A stretch of 64,000 bases of DNA from Cristatella mucedo (lineage: Eukaryota; Bryozoa; Phylactolaemata; Cristatellidae): the NCBI GenBank assembly GCA_009760855.2, contig WPIO01000040.1:3345001-3409000 (forward strand), read 5' to 3'. Both the position numbers and the translations under genes were made by a program. The notes below the pieces were generated by a model that ran no database searches, had not been told where the DNA came from, and was given only the letters and a program-made list of their open reading frames with translations. Shown piece by piece: positions 7,242 through 62,857 of this stretch. Each line of letters opens with the position of its first letter. The first letter of the stretch is position 1.

Positions 7242-15350
<8,109 letters not shown>

Positions 15351-18257: not shown

Positions 18258-18356
18258 CTACCTGATGAATATGACTGGCTGCAGTGAGGCAGCCGTCTTG
18301 CCCAGCTCCGCTCGGAAATACTCGATCGTCCGACTGATTCCATCCAGCATTTTCAC
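18258..18356 (-). CDS. UXS1 last exon
   Basis: The acceptor is TGCCACAG. Together with the previous exon it reads [18 protein letters not shown], in register with human WEPVVPLEEGLNKAIHYF, then a short tail ending IFIR-TAG. The stop overlaps AG|GTAGGC, a good donor. The protein may therefore end here with a shortened basic tail or splice to an unseen 3' exon. Confidence 0.8.
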   Translation of the reverse strand: MKMLDGISRTIEYFRAELGKTAASLQPVIFIR

Positions 18357-21300
18357 CTGTGGCAGGCGGGCAGCACATCAGGTGCAAGAAAAATGTCAGG
18401 GCCGGCAGGGAGGGTGGATGGAGAATGCCAAACTGATTATGTGAGGGGCGGGGCACAGGAGGTGCGAACGACGCGCGACTCTGACCTGCGGCTCCCAGCC
18501 GATGTGCTTCTTTGCCCTCGATATGTCCGGCTTCCTTTTCTGCGGATCGTCCTCCACGGCCGCCTTGCGCACGATTAGACTCGAGCTGTCTACACAAACG
18601 ATACGGCGGTAAGCTGCTGCTGCTGCTCGACTGTCACGAGTCATCTGGGCGAAGCCGCTCCGATGCTACTCGCATGCACGCCTGCTGGCTCCCTGCTGCA
18701 GGGACCCGGGAGGGTCGTCAGCCAGGAAGGATCACTCACTGGCTGCCTTCTGAATGATGGACGCAAACTCGCCGACTTGGTGCTCTTCCGGATTGCCGAG
18801 ATTCACCGGCAGTGTGAAGTTGCTGTTCATTAGCGCAACGAGGCCGTGCACGAGGTCGGACACGTATTGGAAGGAGCGCGTCTGCGAGCCGTCTCCGTAT
18901 ATCTATGCGGAGAGCACGGGAGAGCGGCTGGTGGACCAGCACAGCAGGATGACAGGTCTGCGCGATTGCCCACAGGACGGACGGATGAGAGAGTGGAGCC
19001 GCGAGCGCCGCTCGATCGCGAGGCTGCTCAGGCCGATGGCAGCCGCAAAGCGAGCTAGTCAAAGCTCAGGGCATCGATGGAGGCCTCAGAGGCCAGTGGC
19101 TTCATGGGAGGCAGAGGTCAGATGCTTCAGGGACCAGAGGTCAGCCGATTCGGGGGGGGGGCAGAGGTCAGATGCTTCGGGGCGACAGGCCGGCAGCAGC
19201 AGCTCACCGTGATGGGCTCGCCCTGCAGGGCTTGCAGGATGAAGTTGCTTACGACGCGACCGTCGTTCATGTGCATGCGAGGCCCGAACGTGTTGAATAT
19301 GCGTGCCACGCGCACCTCGATGCTCTCCTGGAGGACAAGAATGATACGGCGAACGGCGATAGAGGCAGACTGCAGATGGAGGCGATAGAGGCAGACCGCA
19401 GCAGCATTTTCAGCATCAGATCACCACAGCGTTTCTTCGACCGCACAACCGCGAGCATGGACCTCGGCACGGGCAGCGAGCGGCTCGCTCGATCGGCTCA
19501 GGCTTCCAGTTGGGGTGGTCGGTGTTGAGCAAGCACGGAAGAGCACTTGCTGGAAGCTTCGTCAGCTACGACTAGAGACGGCTCGAACCAAAGATCCTGA
19601 ACCCACGACCCTGTTCGAAAGTGCGAGGACATCGCCTTATACAAAAAATTCCTCTGTATCTGTGTCGAAGTAGGTACCAATGCGTACCGATGCACTCAGC
19701 TTGTTTTTACTCGTCTCATTCAAAGGCCACAGCCGGCTGTCAGCGTTTATCCCTCGTTCAAACAAAACGGCTTCCAGTAAGGAAGACAGACCGAGCCAAG
19801 CCCACGCAAAGCCTTTAGCAAGCCAAAGGCTCTCAGCGTAGTAATGAGCCAAGTATTCGCAAAACAGTGCCCCGTGAGAGAATACTTGAGAGCTTACATC
19901 GATTCCAAGTCATTGCTCAGCTCCTACAACTTTTAGCCAAAACATGGGGGCAGGGGCAGTTCACTTGCCTGCTTGGCGTATGCGTAGCACATCGTCTCGG
20001 CCACTCGCTTCGCCTCGTCGTAGCACGCTCGCGGCCCGATAGGATTCACGTGGCCCCAGTAGCCTTCGTGCTGCGGGTGCTCCTTGGGATCTGCAGAAGC
20101 GCGACCGAGCGCGGCGGCGGTGTAGCACGGCAGCGTGGAGCGTGCCAGCGCACTGCCCCCACCACAACGTCTCACAGCTCAACTTTAAGTGAGCGGCAAA
20201 TGAGGACTGCAGGCAGGCAGGCAGGCAGGCAGGCAGGCTGCTGCTGCTCTTTCTCGTTTATGCGCCTCATTCGTTTTGTGGGCGCCGAGATCGCCGCTAG
20301 TTGGGCGCTTTTTTGTTCTGCCTTTTTGCAATAGGCGTCCTCGTGGTACCACCCTCCCCTGATAGAAATAAAAGTCAGCGGCCCTCAAGCTTTCGCTCCC
20401 GGGGTGCCTGCCTTATGATGCCGATGAGATGCAGATGCTCATCCTTCTCTCTGAGGAGGGAAGAAGGTCCTCTGAGAGAACGAACCTCTCCTCTCTCTCT
20501 CTCTCTCTCTCCCTCGACATCCCCCCTACCGCTGCTTAGCGTCAAAATGCTCGTACTGAAATTTCATTTCTAAGGGAGCCGAACCATTCATAAAAGGACC
20601 TGCTAAGCCTGACCACTCCGGCAGGGCAGGAGCTCCTGCTTTGAGACCCGGGGTCTCTACGAATGCTCGCTAAATGAATAAGTCACTCCACGGAGAAAAA
20701 TTCGAGAGAGACAAAACGGCAGACTGCGAGAGCAAGGCGCGACGATACCTCCGTACACTTCGGACGTCGACGCCAGTAGGAAGCGTGCCTTCACACGCCT
20801 CGCAAGACCTGCAGCGGGCAAGCATCATATTAAGAGCTGAGCCGTACGCACGCGTCCGGCCGGCGGAGAGGTGGGAGCCTGCGCAGTGGCACCGCACCTC
20901 CGAACCGGTGCACGTGTTGCGCGCGATAGACAGCCAGTGCGCTCACTGGCCCAAGCGTAGGTTCGGAGGCATGTGCCGGATATCTGGAGTGAAGTCGGGA
21001 TCGGCACGGCAACTGCCAGAATGGATATCATCGACGTGCAGTGGGCCTAAGGGGGGGCTGGCATGGCCAGCACTCGAGCGCAAGGGGTGCAGCAGGACAC
21101 AGCATCGCAGCTTGGCACTCGGCGACACTTTGCTTAGGAGGACGACTCCCAGTGATCATCGACGCGCGGCGGCAGCGCCGCTGCCTTGCCTAGCATGTTG
21201 ATCGTGCCAATCGCGTTCGTCTTGATCGTCTTGATGGGATTGTACATGTAGTTGGGCGGTGAGGCCGGCGAGGCGAGATGGTAGATCTGGTCGACTGAAA

Positions 21301-24300
21301 CGCAGGCGTCAACACAGAACACTAAAACCCGAAACCAAGTTACAAAAAAAGACCGAGAGACAGAGAAACAAACTAGTGACGCCACCAAACACCGGATAAT
21401 CTGACCGCTAATTCGCACACACTCTGAGGGACAGGGTGCCATTCCTGCCTCCTCAAGAAACTAAGTGTGTCTGTCTCTTTGTCGTCTTTCTCTGTCTGTG
21501 TGTGTGTGTGTGTCTCTCTCTCTTTCTCTCTCTCCCTGTTTCTCAGTCTTTCTCTGTCTCGGTCTCCTACCTTCGCTAGCAGTTTTGAGCCAGTGCACGA
21601 CGGCGTACCACTCGCTTGCATTATTTACAGCAGTTCGGGGGGGGGGGGACATCGAGATGGCTGCTACCTTCGATGTACAACGGGTTGACCACGTCGTGGT
21701 TGATGAGCTCAAAGTTCTCGTGACCGAGCCAATGCTCGACGTTCCTCTTTCGGCCGGTGAAGAAGTTGTCCACGACCGTGACCTCGTGACCTTCAAGCAT
21801 GAGATAGTCCACCAGGTGGGAGCCGACGAATCCGGCGCCGCCTGTCACCTGCACGTGACCGTACACATGCAGCATCCGTGTGAGAGCTGAAAGCCTCAGT
21901 CTGGAGCACACTGCGCTCGAAAGTGCGTCGAATATTGCTCGTGCCTGCTCCGAAGGAGCCGAAACCCCCAGCAATAAATAAATAAGTAACTAATTATAAA
22001 ATAATCAATAAATGAGCTGTTCTTTCACAACACTCTGTGAAAGAGCAGCTCTCGGCAGAACTGTGATTCCGGCTGGACGTAGAGTGACGCTAGGCTATTT
22101 ACAGCAACTGACGGCCAACGTTGCACAACACCAACGTGCACACGCACACACATTGTCTAATGCAAAGCCAGCGAGACCGGCAAGTAGGAGGGAAGCTCAC
22201 AGCTGTGCTGCTGCCGACCGTCTATCGCTGGACGTGCAGCTGAAATAGGCTGAAATTTTGCTTACAGAGCTCTCTTGAAAATGCCAGTGGGGAGGAGAGG
22301 CGAATCGCAGAGAAAGTGAGGTCGGTCACTACAGCTGGCAGCCAGGCGAAAGCGAAAGGTCGAAATGGTGGCCGGAGTACGCGGCCCGAGGAACGGGCGA
22401 TTCAAATTGGCCGCTTCAAGCCGGTGAAGCAAGAGAACGACGGGACATGAAAGCATTTCAGTGAAAAGATTTTAAAGTCGCTGCGCTGCTTGTCGGGGGG
22501 GGGGGGGGCAAAGGTCAGAAAGAAGTGGCTGCTGGCGAGCAGCAGCTACATTCGCGACAGACGGCAGCCCCGCTCACAGGCAGGCAGCTTCTGCCTGCTA
22601 GCAGCAGAATCACGTGAGAGTAACTCGAGTCGATGAAACGATCGATCGAAATCGATGAAACGAGTCGGAACGAGGCAGCACGGCGACGAGCGATTACAGC
22701 ACAGCTGGCCGACATCTTGCGGCACCCGACGAATTCGTCCGAACGGCAGCTGTAGCCAACCAGTTGCGGCGACAGGCGGGCGGGGCGGAAAGGAGTTCTA
22801 CTAACAGAGAGCCACGGCTTCAGCACACATACCAGAATTCGTTTTCTCTGCTTGTAATTCTTGAATCCCACCTGAGGGTACGTCTTCTGCGAGGACAGGC
22901 TCCTACAACGAACGGCGGCACGACAGTGCGGGTCGCAAGACGGATATCAGACCACGGGCAGCGGCTGGATTTTTGGCCCCAAAAATCCAGCCGCTGCTCG
23001 TGGCTCGGGCTTCGGAAGCGCAGCATCGGCGTGTGGGCATCCAAGCTCGAGGAGTGAGACGGAGAACAACATGCATCGCAGCTAGGAGGGAGACCGCATG
23101 GCAGACAGCGTGTGTGACCATGTGGCCTGGGGTGGCGAGACAGGAAGCTTCACCAGAGGATGAGAACAAGTGGCAGAGTTTCAAACGCGGCGCGTACAGC
23201 GAGAAACGACTTTGCTCCAGACGACTTTCACAAAGCGAACGACCGATCGGCTTTTCCAATCACGGCTTCTTGGATCGAGGCGATCTGATAAGATCTGGCG
23301 CGCGCAAACGTCCGCTCTCTGGCCAGATCTTCGGCAGCACCAGCCAGCGAAGCAGCCAGCAGCAGTGTGCCCTACTAGCTGCCATTAATCACAGCTCTCC
23401 TAGAAAGATCATCAATCTCTTCTAGGATGGGAGGTGGTGCTCCTTGAAGTGGCTCAGCCAGCACCCCCGGGGACCTTGCACCCCTTTCCCCGGGGACCTT
23501 GCACCCCTTTCCCGGGAGGGAGGGTCGTGAACCGGCACCCGAGCCACGCTCGAGTGCTCTTGCCCGATGCTGCTTCAGCAGCCGATGAGCAGCAGTTGCC
23601 CAGTCTCCAGGAAAGTAAAAGTCGCGACCACGGCAAAGAGGCCATGGGCTTCTGGGTCGCTTGTCCGAGGCCAAGCAGCCGGCTGCCGCCACAGGTCGAT
23701 GCTGCTGCAGATCGATGACTGCCGGAAGGGGCAGTGGGGTAGAAGGCGATCGGGAAGGGCAGAAGGTGCCGAGCATGAGCTGCTGCCGCTCGAGTGTGTG
23801 TCATCGATGACCAGCAACGACCGGATCTGCCTCCGCAAAGCCGCACCACTCACTGGGGCACTCGAACCGGGGACTGCGCCCCGGCGTCGACCTTGAGGCG
23901 AATGTTGCGCAGCTCCTCGTCGGCGTCCTTCTTGGACTGCCTCAGCTCGTCGACCCTGCAACATTGGCATCAGCATCGGGAGGAGAGAGAGTGTCAATCT
24001 TAGCTGCGCTCAGCGAGCTCACCAGCGGACAGTGCAATCGCGAGCGAGCATGGCTCGGAGTGCGCCGGTGCACATTTACGCACGCACAGGCATCTGGCAG
24101 CAGGCGGCTAGCAGAGGCGCCTGCGGCTTGCCACTCACGTCGACTGCAGGGCGGCGATCTGGCTTCGCAGCAGTGCGATCTCCGAGTGCACTGGCGACGA
24201 GTCGGCGTCTGCTGCTACTGCTGCCCCCGCCTCCCTCTCGCCTGCTTTCTTGTCCACATCCACCCTGCAGAGCGAGCGAGGCTAGCGACGCGCTCGCTCG

Positions 24301-38846: not shown

Positions 38847-62857
<24,011 letters not shown>

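Follow-up and report, generated by a model that had tools for sequence, protein, structure and literature searches.

Three introns that appear to begin with GC rather than GT, within a short stretch of the genome of Cristatella, raise the question of whether GC donors are unusually common in this lineage and, if so, whether the choice of splice donors has been relaxed. The window, meaning the whole stretch of DNA analysed, spans 64,000 nucleotides (G000:C343:3345001-3409000) of an assembly of 572 Mb in 688 contigs; its genes are animal-like. A preliminary description had reported the three introns in strong contexts, put the rate of GC donors at around ten percent and read this as relaxed donor choice. 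The introns and their contexts stand, whereas the rate does not hold outside the window and the relaxation is unsupported. Throughout, junctions were set by protein homology and reading frame. Donors were scored with a spliced-alignment script that weights all 16 donor dinucleotides alike and allows AG acceptors only. In the motifs below, a slash marks the exon-intron boundary.

GC-AG introns in the window

The UXS1 gene (UDP-glucuronate decarboxylase) occupies 18262..22871 on the reverse strand and was modelled with nine exons, which carry seven GT and two GC donors. The last GT donor has no modelled next exon, and the 5' and 3' ends of the gene lie outside the model. Joined after placement by eye, the nine exons give a single uninterrupted frame that ends in QPVIFI and tracks human UXS1 (PDB 2b69, E 1e-149). 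The first GC-AG intron (20809..21189, reverse strand, phase 1) falls between NMLG and LARR: TAG/GCAAGG closes the exon 21294-21190, the acceptor is ctgcag/G and the next exon runs from 20808. The six bases GCAAGG at donor 21189 contain no GT, and the direct join of NMLG to LARR preserves the frame that matches human UXS1. This donor was assigned from the direct join, since the script missed the 60-nt next exon in both of its runs. The second intron (19328..19968, reverse strand, phase 0) lies between AKQ and ESIEV; CAG/GCAAGT closes the exon 20090-19969, the acceptor is ctccag/G and the next exon begins at 19327. Here the spliced alignment ranked GC top (131 against 125 for the next solution), with GT absent among the solutions shown. 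A GT at position 5 of this intron was also considered as the donor and causes a frameshift. The two UXS1 introns had therefore been located correctly in 19328..21189, with GC as the only donor that joins their exons in phase.

The third GC-AG intron belongs to an STK24/25/26-like kinase gene on the forward strand (7242..15346), modelled with eight exons in one joined frame, with seven GT donors and one GC donor. The last GT donor is again without a modelled next exon, and for one GT donor a second GT lies close downstream as an alternative. The frame of the first exon matches Pkinase (Pfam PF00069). The intron itself (7470..7707, forward strand) reads AAG/GCAAGC at the donor and ccgcag/G at the acceptor, and both the score and the joined frame bear it out: GC reached 150 against 142 for the runner-up donor. 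GT alternatives for this donor were rejected.

In all, 18 donors were placed in the window (nine in UXS1, eight in the kinase gene and the first of LCMT1), and a modelled next exon was joined for 16 of them. GC was found at three; the total of roughly 27 introns reported earlier was not reproduced. The LCMT1 gene begins at 63.1 kb of the window and extends downstream. The window ranges from 43 to 61% GC in 4-kb steps and is GC-rich in most parts. A search of the window with Rfam at gathering scores gave zero matches. Pfam, applied to ten frames of the window, recognised a kinase in one and retrotransposon reverse transcriptase/endonuclease in two, the other seven being empty. Non-LTR retrotransposon sequence, spread over more than one frame and carrying the domains of an endonuclease (PF03372) and a reverse transcriptase (PF00078), lies at 57108-60654 on the forward strand.

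Frequency of GC donors outside the window

Nine chaperonin genes (CCT1-8 and HSPD1), picked independently of their donors, served as a sample. Their regions were taken from a whole-assembly search with PF00118, and the script was queried with human proteins. Introns lacking a found flanking exon were left uncounted, among them some 5'-terminal ones of CCT1, CCT4, CCT6 and CCT7. The script's own tally comprised 85 rows (GT 78, GC 3, CT 1, TG 1, TT 1, AA 1), which were then corrected by hand. The TG and TT rows belong to a single intron of CCT4, which a spurious match of 12 residues had broken in two; without that match the script scores it as a GT intron (AAG/GTGAGAG). The CT row in CCT3 (75 vs. 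71) was counted as GT, given the evident donor CTG/GTAAGCA, and the AA row in CCT6 was due to a missing exon and resolved into two GT introns when more sequence was supplied. After correction the nine genes hold 85 introns: 82 with GT, two with clear GC donors and one with a tie between GC and GT. GA or GG was the winning donor in none of the 85. The same PF00118 search also matched a single open frame of 549 amino acids at C3:162547-164052, which covers positions 2-489 of 490 of the domain and is unlike the multi-exon HSPD1 on C387; it may be bacterial sequence, symbiont sequence or a retrocopy.

Both clear cases score well above their GT alternatives, with 144 against 93 for AAG/GCAAGTA in CCT4 and 138 against 126 for AAG/GCGAGTG in CCT2. 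The tied junction, also in CCT2, can be read as CAG/GCAAGTT or as CAA/GTTTTTC, with 132 each and an identical protein; judged by its context, GC appears the likelier. It is the sole exact tie of GT and GC among the script's rows. A further CCT2 intron was near-even (GT 99, GC 97) and was kept as GT. Two GC donors are found in each of CCT2 (one of them tied with a weak GT) and UXS1, which hints at clustering within genes.

For comparison, human and mouse are each given 0.8% GC-AG among their protein-coding introns, fly 0.7% and C. elegans 0.6% (PMC7242645), and figures in PMC7072748 imply 1.7% for non-GT-AG introns of all types in animals. The GC share in the sample is 2-3 of 85, or 2.4-3.5% (95% intervals 0.3-8.2% and 0.7-10.0%), for housekeeping chaperonins that may not stand for all introns. 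A rate of 11% would give so few GC donors with P 0.003-0.013 and is rejected. At 0.8%, this many or more are expected with P 0.15 without the tie and 0.03 with it, and a rate of 1.7% is compatible with the 85 introns (P 0.43-0.18). The 17 donors of UXS1 and the kinase gene differ from the sample with P 0.03-0.06. Thus, with two clear GC donors and one tied among 85 introns in nine other genes, the figure of around ten percent does not extend beyond the window, and the excess of GC there is probably local or due to chance.

Two neighboring genes add a few introns. LCMT1 has five, all taken as GT, one junction (CT 56 vs. GT 49) having been set by eye to GT (AAG/GTAGGCT). An MRPS27-like gene on the forward strand (with PDB mS27 matches), within C343:3305001-3345000 upstream of the window, has four GT donors placed by eye, with an evident next exon for three. 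The same interval contains a BTB/KCTD-like frame on the reverse strand, its identity judged by eye. When everything is pooled (85 sample introns, five of LCMT1, four of the MRPS27-like gene and 17 of UXS1 and the kinase gene), GC accounts for 5-6 of 111 donors (4.5-5.4%). This pooled rate exceeds 0.8% (P 0.002-0.0003), and against 1.7% the difference is marginal (P 0.04-0.01), but the pool includes a window that was selected for its GC donors. As far as these gene models allow, GC-AG introns are probably a small minority in the genome, with a best estimate of about 2-4%, and perhaps occur a few times as often as they do in human, fly or worm.

A pattern search with AGGCAAGTATTTT gave 36 matches, against 12 for the reversed-pattern control. 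The match count was rejected as an estimate of the rate: the 36 represent the GC side alone, with no GT count beside it. Eight of the 36 loci were examined. One contains a confirmed GC-AG intron, about 4.6 kb long, at the end of an OTUD6-like exon, where GC scored 111 against 96 for GT once the next exon had been added; the other seven are, by eye, without an evident coding frame. Because it was located by searching for GC, with its context as the search key, the OTUD6-like intron was left out of the rate. A GC donor paired with an AG acceptor is the best in-phase join at donors 19968 and 7470, in CCT4, at both CCT2 junctions (one clear, one tied) and in the OTUD6-like gene.

Sequence context of the GC donors

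All six GC donors, three from the window and three from the sample with the CCT2 tie included, conform to AG/GCRAG, and the strong -AG/GCAAG context first described for the three in the window (two in UXS1, one in the kinase gene) is real. The corresponding AG/GTRAG occurs in only 11 of 105 GT donors (9/82 in the sample, 0/14 in the window and 2/9 in LCMT1 and the MRPS27-like gene; Fisher P 5e-6 for the contrast, 4e-5 without the tied GC). Full AG/GTRAG donors are scarce (9/82) because the +4 base of GT donors is A in 44% and T in 31% (n=70, CCT and HSPD1 loci). Seen from the other side, C stands at +2 in 3 of 12 AG/GYRAG donors of the sample (interval 5-57%), in 6 of 15 when the window is included and in 6 of 17 once LCMT1 and the MRPS27-like gene are added. 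In human, the share of C among such donors is probably a few percent.

Relaxation of donor choice would admit GC to weak sites as well, whereas here GC is found in strong sites alone. This confinement points to tolerance through compensating U1 pairing, which is normal for GC donors and the opposite of relaxed choice. The contrast in context (6/6 vs. 11/105) also provides a cheap test, applicable in any new genome, for separating compensated tolerance from true relaxation. A further reading, though an unlikely one, is that the donors with the strongest U1 pairing are being replaced by GC, perhaps through selection against over-stable pairing, with the machinery unchanged.

U1 snRNA genes

The assembly contains 24 matches to the Rfam U1 family (RF00003). 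Eight copies form a tandem array (C652:107125-123261) with a repeat of ~2.3 kb and near-identical upstream sequence. The 164-nt matches of the array are identical in seven copies, the eighth having a 3-nt insertion, and all eight carry the canonical 5' end ATACTTACCTG. Six more matches on the same contig are divergent, with degenerate 5' ends, and their upstream 75 bases are by eye unlike those of the array. The same holds for the upstream 75 bases of the ten matches on other contigs, four of which keep ATACTTACCTG while it is altered in the rest. Only one of the 16 matches outside the array has the base that pairs with +2 changed to G. This copy (C441:977745-977908) is identical to the array copies at 154 of 164 positions and reads TTACTTGCCTG, in which A7 is replaced by G, the complement of AG/GCAAGU. 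It is the one item able to revive the idea of an altered U1. However, its upstream sequence is unlike that of the array and a tRNA-like repeat follows at its 3' side by eye, as in copies L018 and L024, so that the copy is probably a pseudogene. The comparison of U1 genes, which the preliminary description had proposed as a check, accordingly gives no support for an altered U1, the array being canonical in 8 of 8 copies. A change in U1 as the cause of the GC donors was rejected on the same ground.

Probable origin of the GC donors and alternative explanations

The GC donors are very probably those of ordinary U2-type GC-AG introns, a small minority of ~2-4% served by a normal U1, with the trio in the window as a local cluster. 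A T-to-C change at +2 would have turned a GT donor into GC, and the lost U-A pair with A7 of U1 would be offset by good pairing of the remaining AG/GCRAG, allowing the junctions to be spliced correctly in the cell. An alternative with close to an even chance of being right is that GC-AG introns have risen across the lineage to roughly 3-6%, strong donors having been subject to drift or a mutational bias while the machinery stayed the same. This alternative is compatible with the explanation just given, from which it differs in the rate. The point estimates (2.4-3.5% in the 85 introns, 4.5-5.4% pooled), the proportion of C among AG/GYRAG donors (3/12, 6/15 or 6/17) and the GC-rich composition of most of the window (43-61% per 4 kb) are in its favor, but the unselected sample departs from 0.8% with P 0.03 when the tie is included and 0.15 when it is not, and it fits 1.7% (P 0.18-0.43).

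Relaxed donor choice, arising from an altered U1 or from other parts of the spliceosome, is very improbable. GC at 3 of 18 window donors and the U1-like copy with TTACTTGCCTG would agree with it, yet the U1 array is canonical, the divergent copy is probably a pseudogene, GC occurs in strong contexts only and neither GA nor GG won at any of the 85 sample donors; this part of the preliminary description is not upheld. Even less credible is that the GC donors are artefacts, whether of errors in the assembly, of T/C polymorphism or of misplaced junctions. Such an origin might be suspected where one of six GC cases is tied with a GT reading and the junctions are deduced from genomic sequence. Against it, all six cases, including the tied one, combine AG/GCRAG with an in-phase AG acceptor, while the equivalent context is present in 11 of 105 GT donors; random errors would be expected in weak donors too, so the shared strong context speaks against artefact. 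Ordinary GC-AG introns remain the preferred explanation: a known minor kind of intron, here perhaps somewhat commoner than usual.

Implications for splicing and annotation

A true rate of ten percent would have suggested changed splice-site recognition; the evidence of the U1 array and of the donor contexts is against this. Some gene-prediction settings forbid GC donors (PMC5906903); knowing that they are used here, possibly in 2-4% of introns, would therefore improve gene models.

Comparison with known systems

Compensation of GC donors by strong U1 pairing has been described in mammals (PMC2490688). The GC-AG introns of human, mouse, fly and worm likewise combine a GC donor with an AG acceptor and fit the donor consensus more closely than GT introns do (PMC7242645; PMC2490688). 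Relative to these species the point estimate in Cristatella is 3-4 times higher, although not firmly so in the unselected sample. Other animals have departed further from GT. In Eurytemora affinis, about 12% of introns are reported to have GA or GG donors (PMC5714493), and GA-AG introns are recorded in Oikopleura dioica (PMC7072748). The non-canonical donors of Eurytemora are also preceded by AG (PMC5714493), but, unlike in Eurytemora and Oikopleura, neither GA nor GG won at any of the 85 introns here, and the copies of the U1 array are canonical. A figure of about 9% that drops on better evidence has a parallel in Heterorhabditis bacteriophora, where 8.9% GC-AG in the first gene set became 0.8% after re-annotation (PMC5906903). 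The excess there came from doubtful gene models (PMC5906903), whereas the introns described here look real and their excess reflects a small local sample. In the accessible portions of the literature on GC-AG rates in animals, no lineage near 10% was found beyond Globodera and the corrected Heterorhabditis. Non-canonical splice sites, discussed mainly as GC donors, make up 3.46% in Globodera rostochiensis and 3.56% in G. pallida (PMC4901422). The Globodera introns are RNA-supported and partly conserved across two species (PMC4901422), in contrast to the 85 homology-modelled introns of one genome considered here. Globodera, in which GT donors form the majority as they do in Cristatella, has a raised share of GC-AG introns (PMC4901422), at a rate near the point estimate for the possible rise here.
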